This document shows, one piece after another, positions 14,559 to 24,203 of a stretch of DNA of 64,000 nucleotides. Position 1 is the first letter of the stretch, and the number at the start of each line of letters is the position of its first letter. Source of the DNA: Motilibacter deserti (lineage in GTDB: Bacteria > Actinomycetota > Actinomycetes > Motilibacterales > Motilibacteraceae); contig NZ_JAANNP010000005.1 of assembly GCF_011250635.1 (NCBI RefSeq), forward strand, positions 55,876 to 119,875, written 5' to 3'. The notes under the pieces are model-generated. The model had not been told where the DNA came from, did no database searches, and was given only the letters and a program-made list of their open reading frames with translations. The translations under genes and the position numbers were made by a program.

Positions 14559-18128
<3,570 letters not shown>

Positions 18129-18129
18129 G

Positions 18130-19281
18130 TCAGGCCTCCGCCTCCGCGCGGCGGGCCGCCTCGAGCGCCCGCTGCAGCAGGGCGGCCTCGTCCGCGGTCG
18201 CGGCAGCGCCGCGTACGTGCTCCACGAAGCCGCCGACGAGGGCCAGGTCGTCCAGCCCGCGCACGCGCTCGGAGTAGGACGTGACCGTGGCCCGGACGCT
18301 GCGCTCCGGCTCGTGGCCCAGCACGAGCACGTGGGGGAAGCGCGCGCGCAACCGCTCCATCGGCTCCCGCGGCCGGGCGGCGTCGGTCAGCGTCACCTGC
18401 AGGTAGGACTGCTCGTGCCGGGCCAGCACCGGGTCGGTGAGCAGCGCGTCGAGGCTGCCGCGCAGGCGGGCGAGCGGCCGCGGCACGGGGCAGGGCACGA
18501 GCTGCACCCCGCTGAGCCCGCCGGGGCCGAGGTCGACGAGGGCCACGGACTTGACGTGGCCCGCCTCGGAGAAGGAGTAGGCGAGCGGGGAGCCGCTGTA
18601 GCGCGCCCACGGCGAGACCGTCTGCGCCCCGTGCAGGTGGCCGAGCGCGGCGTAGTCGACGCCGGCGAACGTCTCGACCGGCACGACGCTCACCCCGCCG
18701 ACGGTGATGTCCCGCTCGCTCTCGGACGGCACCCCGCCGGCGACGAAGGCGTGCGCGGCCACCACGGACCGGGTGCCGGCCCCGCGACGGGCGAGATCGG
18801 CCCGTACGCGGCGCATGGCCTCCCCGAGCACGCTCGCGTGGCTGCGCGTCGCGCAGCCGAGCCGAGCCGCGACGGCGTCGGGCTCGAGGTAGGGCAGCGG
18901 GTAGAACGCGACCGGCCCATGGGCGTCCTCGACCAGCACCGGCTCGTCGATGCGCCCCGGGTCCGTGCGCAGGTGCACACCGGCGAGGTCCAGCAGCCGG
19001 GAGCCGAAGCCGAGCCGGGAGGCGGAGTCGTGGTTGCCGCTCAGCAGCAGCACGCGGGCGCCGGTCGCGGCCAGCCGGGCGAGCGCCTCGTCGAAGAGCT
19101 GCACGGCGTCCACCGACGGCAGCGCGCGGTCGTAGACGTCGCCGGCGACGAGCACCACGTCCACCCGCTCGGACCCGGCCAGGTCGACCAGGAAGTCGAC
19201 GAATGCGGCCTGCGGCCCGAGCATCCCCTCGCGGTGGAAGGAGCGGCCCAGATGCCAGTCGGAGGTGTGGAGCACTCGCAC
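18130..19281 (-). CDS. sbcD: exonuclease subunit SbcD (Mre11-like nuclease)
   Basis: 383 residues. Metallophosphoesterase motifs are present in order: HTSDWHLGR, AGDVYDRA, LSGNHDS, AHAFV and GHLHGAQ. The start is GTG 19281, which gives the standard N-terminus VRVLHTSDWHLG and lies 7 nt after a TACGGT -10 element; in-frame GTG/TTG codons up to 19311 are alternatives. Forms the nuclease of the SbcCD complex encoded with sbcC in one operon. Confidence 0.95.
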   Translation of the reverse strand: MRVLHTSDWHLGRSFHREGMLGPQAAFVDFLVDLAGSERVDVVLVAGDVYDRALPSVDAVQLFDEALARLAATGARVLLLSGNHDSASRLGFGSRLLDLAGVHLRTDPGRIDEPVLVEDAHGPVAFYPLPYLEPDAVAARLGCATRSHASVLGEAMRRVRADLARRGAGTRSVVAAHAFVAGGVPSESERDITVGGVSVVPVETFAGVDYAALGHLHGAQTVSPWARYSGSPLAYSFSEAGHVKSVALVDLGPGGLSGVQLVPCPVPRPLARLRGSLDALLTDPVLARHEQSYLQVTLTDAARPREPMERLRARFPHVLVLGHEPERSVRATVTSYSERVRGLDDLALVGGFVEHVRGAAATADEAALLQRALEAARRAEAEA

Positions 19282-19288
19282 GCCCCGC

Positions 19289-19294
19289 ACCGTA
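19289..19294 (-). promoter_or_regulatory. -10 element (TACGGT) of sbcDC
   Basis: TACGGT on the minus strand ends 7 nt before GTG 19281; no ribosome binding site is present, suggesting a leaderless sbcDC message. Confidence 0.5.
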
Positions 19295-19376
19295 GGAGGC
19301 CCCACTGACAAGACCCGGGAGGCGCGCGGCAGCCGGTGGGGGATTGCCTCATCTGCCGCACGGGGATCGGGGGGTC

Positions 19377-21559: not shown

Positions 21560-22324
21560 CTAGTCGGCCGGGCGCCGGTGCACGTCGCGCGCCGTCGCCT
21601 GGTCCCGGGGGAACAGGTCGAGACGCGCCACCGACACGTGCGCCGGCCGAGTCACGGCCCACGTGACGACGTCGGCGACGTCCTCACCAGTGAGCGGCGT
21701 CATGCCGTCGTAGACCGCGTCGGCGCGGTCGACGTCGCCGGAGAACCGCACGGTGGAGAACTCGGTGTTGACCAGCCCGGGAGCGATCTCGATGACGCGG
21801 ACCGGCTCGCCCAGGAGCTCGAGCCGCACGGTGTCGACGACGGCGGCGGCCGCGTGCTTGGCGCCGGTGTAGCCGCCTCCGCCGACGTAGGTCTGGTGGC
21901 CCGCGACGCTCGTGATGACGACGATGCGCCCGTCGCCGGAGGCGCGCAGCGCCGGCAGGAACGCGTTGATGGTGCGCGGCAGGCTCAGGACGTTGGCTTC
22001 GTACATCCACCGCCACTTCTCCTCGTCCCACTTCTCCACGGGGTCGAGACCGAGCGCACCACCTGCGTTGCACACCAGGACCTCGCAGGACGTGACCCCG
22101 GCGGCGAACTCCTCGACGGAGGCCGAGTCGGTGACGTCGACGCGGCGCGTCCGAACGTCCACGCCGGGAATCCCGGCCGCCACCTCGGCGAGCCGGTCGG
22201 CGCGCCGCGCCCCGAGCAGGAGCGGGAAGCCGGCGGCCCCGAGCGCCCGGGCCGTCGCGGCGCCGATGCCGCTGCTCGCACCGGTGATGACTGCCGTGCC
22301 GCGCGTCGCCGCAGATGTGGTCAC
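21560..22324 (-). CDS. short-chain dehydrogenase/reductase
   Basis: 254 residues, classical SDR. TGASSGIG cofactor motif at 14-21, ARRAD favouring NADP(H), CNAGG, the active-site Ser in ITSVAG, and YTGAKH (YxxxK). It most resembles the YdfG/serine-dehydrogenase-like group of broad-specificity oxidoreductases; substrate unknown. GTG start 8 nt after a TACGGT -10. Confidence 0.87.
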   Translation of the reverse strand: MTTSAATRGTAVITGASSGIGAATARALGAAGFPLLLGARRADRLAEVAAGIPGVDVRTRRVDVTDSASVEEFAAGVTSCEVLVCNAGGALGLDPVEKWDEEKWRWMYEANVLSLPRTINAFLPALRASGDGRIVVITSVAGHQTYVGGGGYTGAKHAAAAVVDTVRLELLGEPVRVIEIAPGLVNTEFSTVRFSGDVDRADAVYDGMTPLTGEDVADVVTWAVTRPAHVSVARLDLFPRDQATARDVHRRPAD

Positions 22325-22349: not shown

Positions 22350-23405
22350 TCAGAGCAGCGTCAGCTGGGCGGGCTCGACGGCCGGCTGCGGCCGGGACAG
22401 CCGTGCCCGCTCGTGGCCGGTGCGCCAGCGCGTGGTGGCCCGCCGTCCGATGCCGTGCTTGTCGGCCAGCTCGCGGACCTGCCGCGCGATGAGCTCCTGG
22501 TAGCCCTTCGGCGCGTATGACCCGGCGGCGTAGAGCGCCTGGTAGCGGGCGACGAGCTCGGGGTGCTCGCGCTCGAGCCAGGCCATCCACCACTCGCGCG
22601 CGCCGGGCCGCAGATGGAGCACGATCGGGGTGAGGTACGCCGCCCCCGCCGCCGCGGCGGCGGCGACCGTCTCCTCGAGCTGGGCGGGGGAGTCGGTGAG
22701 CCCGGGCAGGATCGGCGCCATCAGCACGCCGCACCGGATGCCCGCCTCGTTGAGGGCCGCGACGGTCTCGAGCCGGCGCATCGGCGCGGGCGTCCCGGGC
22801 TCGACCCCGCGCCAGACCGTCTCGTCGACGAACCCGACCGAGAGCGCGGTCGAGACGTCCGTGCGGTCTGCGGCGTCGGTGAGCAGGTCGAGGTCGCGGG
22901 CGATGAGCACGCCCTTGGTGAGGATCGAGAAGGGGTTGTTCGCGTCCCGCAGGGCGGAGATGACGCCGCGCATCAGGCGGTAGCGGCCCTCGACGCGCTG
23001 GTAGGGGTCGGTGTTGGTGCCGAGCGCGACGTGCTCGCCCTTCCACCGCCGCCCCGCGAGCTCGCGGCGCAGCACCTGGGCCACGTTGACCTTGACGAGG
23101 ACCTTGGCGTCGAAGTCGGCGCCGGAGTCCAGGTCGAGGTATTCGTGGGTCTTCCGGGCGAAGCAGTAGCGGCAGGCGTGCGAGCAGCCGCGGTAGGGGT
23201 TGACCGTCCACGAGAACGGCACCTGCGACGCGGCCGGCACCCGGTTGAGCGCCGAGCGGGCCTGCACCTCGAAGAAGGTCATCCCGCGGAACGCCGGGGT
23301 GTCGAACGTGCGGGTGACGGCGCCACGGGGGAGAAGCGGGAGCGCGCCGTCGGCGAGCCCGGCCCCCTCTTCGTCCGCGTCGAGGCGCAGGTTGTCCCAT
23401 CGCAC
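22350..23405 (-). CDS. Rv2578c-family radical SAM protein (SplB-like)
   Basis: 351 residues. The 4Fe-4S motif CxxxCxYC is CSHACRYCF, inside NPYRGCSHACRYCFAR, followed by LGTNTDPYQ and ALSVGFVDE; this is the pattern of the Rv2578c/spore-photoproduct-lyase-like family. Reaction unknown. Start GTG 23405 gives the typical VRWDNLRL N-terminus; the in-frame ATG 23423 would lie inside the LexA-like box. The frame stays open further upstream by GC bias only. Probably damage-inducible. Confidence 0.87.
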   Translation of the reverse strand: MRWDNLRLDADEEGAGLADGALPLLPRGAVTRTFDTPAFRGMTFFEVQARSALNRVPAASQVPFSWTVNPYRGCSHACRYCFARKTHEYLDLDSGADFDAKVLVKVNVAQVLRRELAGRRWKGEHVALGTNTDPYQRVEGRYRLMRGVISALRDANNPFSILTKGVLIARDLDLLTDAADRTDVSTALSVGFVDETVWRGVEPGTPAPMRRLETVAALNEAGIRCGVLMAPILPGLTDSPAQLEETVAAAAAAGAAYLTPIVLHLRPGAREWWMAWLEREHPELVARYQALYAAGSYAPKGYQELIARQVRELADKHGIGRRATTRWRTGHERARLSRPQPAVEPAQLTLL

Positions 23406-23413
23406 CGCATCAG

Positions 23414-23429
23414 TAGAACACATGTTCGA
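23414..23429 (-). promoter_or_regulatory. LexA/SOS-box-like operator
   Basis: On the minus strand TCGAACATGTGTTCTA matches the actinobacterial SOS box TCGAAC-N4-GTTCGA at 11 of 12 defined positions. It ends 9 nt before the GTG of the radical SAM gene, where it would overlap a promoter. Confidence 0.75.
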
Positions 23430-23594
23430 CTGAGGGCGCTGGGGCGGCGGGTCGGTTGCTGTGCGAGCAGGGGGTGCGCCAGGGTTGGCGGGTGAGGCAG
23501 CGCGAGCGAGGGCCGGTCCGCGAGCCGGCCGGGGAGCCCGGGTCGGCCCCGCCGCCCGCCCGCAGCGACGGTCGGCGGCGGTGACGGGCGAGCG

Positions 23595-24203
23595 ATGACC
23601 CGGAGCTTCCTGATCCTGCACGGGTGGCAGAACACCCGCCCGCCGGGGCACTGGCAGCGGTGGCTGGCCGAGCAGCTCGAGGCAGGTGGAGAGCGCGTCG
23701 CGTACCCGCAGCTGCCGGATCCCGATGAGCCACGGCTCGACGTCTGGACCGAGCACCTGCTCGCCGCCCTCGACACGCTGCCCGCGCAAGGCCGCACCGT
23801 CGTCTGCCACAGCCTCGCCTGCCTGCTCTGGCTGCACGCGGCCGCCCGGCCGTCGCCCGTGCCGCCGGTGGACCGGCTGCTGCTCGTCGCGCCCCCGTCG
23901 GGCGAGGTCCTGCGCCGGCACATCGAGGTGGCGGCGTTCGCCGGCCCCGCCGCCTCTGCGGCCGATGTCCGCGCCTCGGCCCTGAGCGAGGCCCGGCTGG
24001 TGGCGGCCGACGACGACCCCTACTGCCCGGCCGGCGCGGCCGGCGAGTACGCCCGCGCGCTCGAGCTCGAGCTCGACCTGCTGCCGGGCCAGGGCCACCT
24101 GAGCATGGACGAGGGCTACGGGCCCTGGCCCTCGGTGCTGCGGTGGTGCCTCGAGCCGGGGGTTCGCGTCGAGGCGCGGGCCGGGGCGATGCCGCCCGGC
24201 TGA
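23595..24203 (+). CDS. RBBP9/YdeN-type serine hydrolase
   Basis: 202 residues, small alpha/beta hydrolase. ILHGWQNT at the N-terminus, nucleophile elbow VVCHSLACLL (Ser near residue 76), acid in ADDDPYCP, and His in GQGHLSM. The family has esterase-like activity on uncertain natural substrates. The ATG lies in a G-rich context (GACGGGCGAGCG) without a strong ribosome binding site. Divergent from the radical SAM gene, sharing its 190-bp upstream region. Confidence 0.83.
   Translation: MTRSFLILHGWQNTRPPGHWQRWLAEQLEAGGERVAYPQLPDPDEPRLDVWTEHLLAALDTLPAQGRTVVCHSLACLLWLHAAARPSPVPPVDRLLLVAPPSGEVLRRHIEVAAFAGPAASAADVRASALSEARLVAADDDPYCPAGAAGEYARALELELDLLPGQGHLSMDEGYGPWPSVLRWCLEPGVRVEARAGAMPPG

Follow-up and report, generated by a model that had tools for sequence, protein, structure and literature searches.

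Bacillus-type spores irradiated with UV are the known source of the spore photoproduct, and the spore photoproduct lyase (SPL) of Bacillus and Geobacillus (PDB 4FHC) requires a fourth cysteine as hydrogen donor (C140/C141). SplB-like radical SAM genes also recur in the SOS regulons of bacteria without endospores. SOS regulation of splB has been predicted in alpha- and betaproteobacteria (PMC3323433) and in Bacteroidetes (PMC8565304), and comparative work whose species included M. tuberculosis and Acidothermus counts a radical SAM protein as part of the core LexA regulon of Gram-positives (PMC7739468). In Streptomyces venezuelae, the radical SAM protein gene vnz_31145 is a LexA ChIP target that is induced 20-fold by mitomycin C (PMC9380542). 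In view of these reports from Gram-positives, Streptomyces, proteobacteria, and Bacteroidetes, LexA control of radical SAM/splB genes is already known, and the original prediction of such control at the locus described below is correct but mostly not new.

The closest described gene is the Streptomyces member of the Rv2578c family (SVEN_6313, SCO6481, SAM40697_5543). In S. venezuelae this is SVEN_6313, located at 6.89 Mb (PMC12924846), and by map position vnz_31145 is probably the same gene, i.e., an Rv2578c orthologue. This identity rests on map position because the published 14-nt vnz_31145 box could not be located ahead of an Rv2578c-type start: together with an RTGCGNTGG start, it occurred in none of 395 Streptomycetaceae-like genomes, and the nine matches obtained in named genomes included no Streptomyces. 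When the literature naming Rv2578c was searched, nothing on LexA was found. The Streptomyces gene is also the attB site of phage Samy (PMC12924846), and this prophage therefore integrates into an SOS-controlled gene. S. ambofaciens carrying the prophage-disrupted gene shows no clear fitness loss, which counts against the repair reading, and a 2026 paper considers the repair role of the Streptomyces member still speculative (PMC12924846). In archaea, SplB-like genes adjoin nreB; the related NreA is a PCNA-binding protein required for mitomycin C repair, and crosslinks have been suggested as the lesion for archaeal SplB (PMC4929162).

We analyzed a 64,000-nt stretch of Motilibacter deserti DNA, referred to here as the window, in which the gene and its upstream element are placed as follows.

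22350 to 23405, minus strand: Rv2578c-family radical SAM gene with a GTG start, 351 aa (NF038135; Radical_SAM PF04055; SPL-like fold)
23414 to 23429, minus strand: putative LexA operator (SOS box) TCGAACATGTGTTCTA (11/12 consensus; orthologue conservation; box at the genome's own lexA)

Read on the minus strand from 23429 to 23414, the box agrees with TCGAAC-N4-GTTCGA at 11 of 12 positions and is separated by 8 nt from the GTG, which begins at 23405. It is the sole window site with just one mismatch; when two mismatches or fewer were allowed, the window contained five matches against 2.26 expected, a number reached by 7 of 100 shuffles, and pattern searches of the whole genome at this threshold gave 431 matches per strand compared to 258 for the reversed motif. 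The genome contains one lexA (G000:C234:595154-595783, 257.9 bits), itself with an 11/12 box, TCGAACACATGTTTGA, 90 nt upstream. The GTG at 23405 was judged to be the right start because Met(Val)-Arg-Trp opens 51/51 aligned orthologues at that codon and the NF038135 model begins there; an in-frame ATG within the box (23423-23421) was rejected in favor of this conserved start. Taken alone, a single SOS-box match in the window is weak evidence, and what settles the box as real is its conservation before orthologues.

For this comparison, NF038135 was searched in 60 relatives and then in 297 genomes of the class, and 200 nt upstream of the starts were scored, the orthologue set comprising 126 Rv2578c-family (NF038135) gene starts from 18 actinobacterial families. 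A box matching at least 9 of 12 positions was present upstream of 124 of the 126 starts, with 9 for the reversed-motif control, and at a threshold of at least 10 of 12 the corresponding numbers were 101 and 1. All 18 sampled families have an upstream box, which starts at -23 to -25 in 91 orthologues, as exemplified by TCGAACTGCTGTTCTA at -24 in Nonomuraea gerenzanensis. Upstream of the gene in the family to which the window belongs, nothing but this box and the gene start itself is clearly conserved. The Streptomycetaceae-like orthologues have a box in 28/28 cases, mostly GGGAACANNTGTTCTA at about -46, and that of Streptomyces sp. BHT-5-2 is GCGAACATGTGTTCTA; the Streptomyces gene combines this more distant box with a Shine-Dalgarno-like leader, whereas the window has the leaderless -24 layout. 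The original prediction, which made the gene a candidate DNA-damage-response enzyme and named box conservation before orthologues as a check, is thus supported across the 18 families, with the box at the same distance in the 91 orthologues mentioned above.

Because the radical SAM gene and a hydrolase gene at 23595 diverge from about 190 bp that includes the box, the box might instead govern the hydrolase. We regard this as exceedingly improbable, since the hydrolase was present at no other orthologue locus, same genus included, while both the box and its spacing from the start of the radical SAM gene are retained; the hydrolase was rejected as the target on these grounds. By these comparisons, the radical SAM gene of the window is almost certainly under LexA control. 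A variant operator was noted, together with locus L149, on a Tsukamurella tyrosinosolvens plasmid (L201), whose Rv2578c gene has the box TCGAAC-GAGAT-GTTCGA; its 5-nt spacer accounts for its low score against a fixed spacer, and LexA binding there may be impaired.

Aligning the 91 promoters with a box at -23 to -25 on the box itself gave a logo from which the core promoter elements at the window locus were placed.

23412 to 23417, minus strand: -10-like hexamer TCTACT, composed of the box 3' end and two further bases (orthologue logo)
23435 to 23440, minus strand: -35 position, AGCGCC here with no recognizable -35, TTGAC in orthologues (orthologue logo)

In the logo, TTGAC occupies box positions -11 to -7 (T at -11 in 91%) and is followed, after a 17-nt spacer, by a -10 hexamer TC[GT]A[AC]T, which spans +12 to +17 and consists of the box end and the next two bases; its first T is present in 100% of the promoters and its last T in 98%. 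TTGAC-like words were found at the -35 position in 52/91 promoters, compared to 3/91 for reversed words. The predicted transcription start coincides with the start codon in this layout, and we infer that the promoter is leaderless and that the LexA operator covers the spacer and the -10 element. The earlier claim that the box overlaps the probable core promoter therefore holds for the orthologue logo but is less clear at the window locus, where a consensus promoter scan found no promoter, the -10-like part being kept and the -35 being poor. Given the lack of a good -35 and the negative scan, the window promoter may be weak or reliant on other features. Altogether, near-universal LexA control in Actinomycetota and the fixed operator-promoter layout make a DNA-damage role of the Rv2578c-family enzyme very likely.

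The encoded protein is a true member of the family, as had been proposed, scoring 504.2 bits on NF038135 (cut-off 430) with residues 1-319 aligned to positions 1-316 of the 317-position model; on the PA0069 model NF033668 it reached 239 bits (cut-off 360). Its radical SAM signature is located as follows.

23163 to 23186, minus strand: radical SAM cluster motif CSHACRYC (C74, C78, C81), invariant in 51 orthologues

AlphaFold (mean pLDDT 84 overall) gave a confident core of about residues 29-322 between disordered ends (1-28 and 323-351), and each of the six best PDB matches was an SPL structure (E about 1e-9, TM 0.61, 15% identity), with which the protein shares its overall fold and the C-x3-C-x2-C motif. 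These matches, and the frequent annotation of such proteins as SplB, would be compatible with a genuine SPL that repairs 5-thyminyl-5,6-dihydrothymine. The active site makes this very unlikely: a search for a fourth invariant cysteine in the 51 orthologues found none besides C74, C78, and C81, the next best being C225 (35/51), and the hydrogen donor of SPL is thus without a conserved counterpart in the Rv2578c family. Since the surroundings of C140 in the SPL fragment could not be aligned confidently to the family with hhalign, the hydrogen-donor test rests on this absence of any invariant fourth cysteine. Moreover, Tyr98 of SPL, next to the cluster, aligns with an invariant Phe82, identity is low, and many of the hosts form no Bacillus-type spores. 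With no conserved donor cysteine and Tyr98 replaced by Phe82, the window protein is predicted to be SPL-like in fold, yet not SPL proper on the catalytic features tested; accordingly, the description SplB-like in the original prediction stands for the overall fold and not for the catalytic residues. Many orthologues (L121, L124, L140, L145, L038, L072, and most f20 loci) are 490-716 aa long, with extra sequence inserted into the radical SAM domain, which is consistent with the intein-containing subfamily NF038136.

Beyond the end of the NF038135 model, the protein continues into a linker and a conserved tail.

22368 to 22439, minus strand: variable disordered linker ahead of the tail (pLDDT <50 from residue 323; low conservation)
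22353 to 22367, minus strand: pentapeptide QLTLL, putative beta-clamp-binding motif (strict pattern at 88/122 orthologue C-termini versus 1/504 other ORFs at the same loci; also in alphaproteobacterial PA0069 tails)

The linker has an information content of about 0.5-1.6 bits, against 2.8, 1.9, 1.7, 3.3, and 2.0 bits at the last five positions, and shuffled tails showed the strict pattern in 0.28% of cases. Tail variants among the orthologues include QLTLL (window), QLSLL, QMTLL, QDALF, QPTLF, QATLF, and QLALPGF, with tails of the QLTLL type at 28/28 of the Streptomycetaceae-like loci. About a quarter of the orthologues depart from the strict pattern (e.g., APTLF, QLALPGF, and PSALF), and the tail is wholly missing in L031, L037, and L038. 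The bacterial clamp-binding motif has the form QLxLF (PMC4549789), and clamp motifs of this kind are found in the actinobacterial repair proteins ImuB (QLPLWG; PMC10421592) and NucS (KLRLF; PMC11109965). These proteins resemble the window protein in their short clamp-binding peptide, and ImuB also in its link to the DNA-damage response, but unlike it they are not radical SAM enzymes. Our literature search on the clamp together with radical SAM or SPL, with limited coverage of subscription papers, returned no report of the tail, and within the literature searched the C-terminal tail of the Rv2578c family is unreported.

Related proteins outside the family were compared using 32 alphaproteobacterial PA0069-family (NF033668) genes. 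The tail pattern was present in 25/32 of their products, the remaining seven being near variants such as QFSLF and QLSFL, and the LexA box GTTCN7GTTC was found at 8/8 within 150 nt in 25/32 genes, whereas the reversed control never exceeded 7; in one further gene (L167) the box lies at -199. The S. meliloti pSymB copy, for example, has the box GTTCTTGCTTTGTTC and the tail QLSLL, and a Legionella plasmid copy has the tail QLDLF without a recognizable SOS box. The SOS-regulated splB genes of alpha- and betaproteobacteria and Bacteroidetes (COG1533; NF033668) resemble the window gene as a related radical SAM family under LexA control, with the same C-terminal tail in the alphaproteobacterial PA0069 proteins, but differ in belonging to another equivalog family, in their N-terminal region, and in the LexA motif (GTTCN7GTTC in alphaproteobacteria). 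Within the actinobacteria, an SOS box is also conserved before a paralogue in family f17, most copies of which have TCGAATGCGTGTTCTA; the tail of this paralogue is QLALV or QLSLL. This second Rv2578c-like paralogue scores below the cut-off and was seen with its own SOS box in the f17 genomes L043, L044, and L152-L156, which can thus carry two SOS-boxed copies. No such tail was present in nine less closely related radical SAM proteins (mobile pair proteins and Firmicute, Bacteroidetes, and haloarchaeal proteins) or in L047, an actinobacterial protein of another branch.

Short motifs such as the tail pentapeptide can mislead at times, and a LexA-regulated enzyme could use these residues for packing on its own core or for docking another protein. 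The tails of family f36, which mostly lack Gln (PSALF and APTLF), fit such a use better than clamp binding. Set against this, a Q-x-x-L-[LF] sequence at the extreme C terminus past a disordered linker is the standard bacterial clamp form, and the motif recurs in alphaproteobacteria despite their different LexA motif; we therefore think a non-clamp tail unlikely, though worth some weight. QLTLL is of the QLxLF type and would form an accessible C-terminal site after its disordered linker, and we predict with good confidence that the window enzyme docks on the DnaN sliding clamp via this tail.

An SOS-induced radical SAM enzyme might also modify tRNA, protein, or a metabolite in a stress response, given that radical SAM enzymes of similar fold have many substrates and that MiaB, RlmN, and lipoyl synthase were among the matches, weaker than SPL. 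That a substrate other than DNA is involved appears decidedly unlikely, since the SPL branch is the best match, the clamp-type tail points to DNA, and the SOS regulation is found in several phyla. Our preferred reading, which we hold to be likely, is that the window protein is a radical SAM enzyme that is induced in the SOS response, docks on the clamp, and acts on damaged DNA; a role in processing lesions, taken by itself, is probable. From the comparisons above we infer how the window locus is repressed, that the enzyme binds the clamp and acts on DNA, and what the lesion might be, in the following form. In an undamaged cell, LexA would sit over the spacer and the -10 element and block transcription; upon DNA damage, RecA filaments would trigger LexA self-cleavage, releasing the gene for leaderless transcription. 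The flexible QLTLL tail would then dock the enzyme on DnaN and so place it at stalled forks or repair patches. There, the 5'-deoxyadenosyl radical would act on a lesion in the DNA, which may be a crosslink within or between strands. In more general terms, we see even chances that the SOS-regulated SplB-like enzymes of Actinomycetota and Alphaproteobacteria form a class of clamp-docked radical DNA repair enzymes for lesions other than the spore photoproduct, possibly crosslinks. The clamp-type tail, common to the alphaproteobacterial relatives, offers a concrete, testable mechanism for SplB-like enzymes.

Downstream of the radical SAM gene, an SDR gene (21560-22324, minus strand) starts about 25 nt past the radical SAM stop and is possibly co-transcribed with it; a conserved operon of the two was rejected because the pairing recurs in the same genus only. 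An SDR gene is also next downstream of the Legionella plasmid PA0069 gene. Another DNA repair system is located farther along the same strand, some 3 kb beyond the end of the radical SAM gene, where the window contains sbcD and a putative sbcC ORF of 1189 aa (14559-19311, minus strand).
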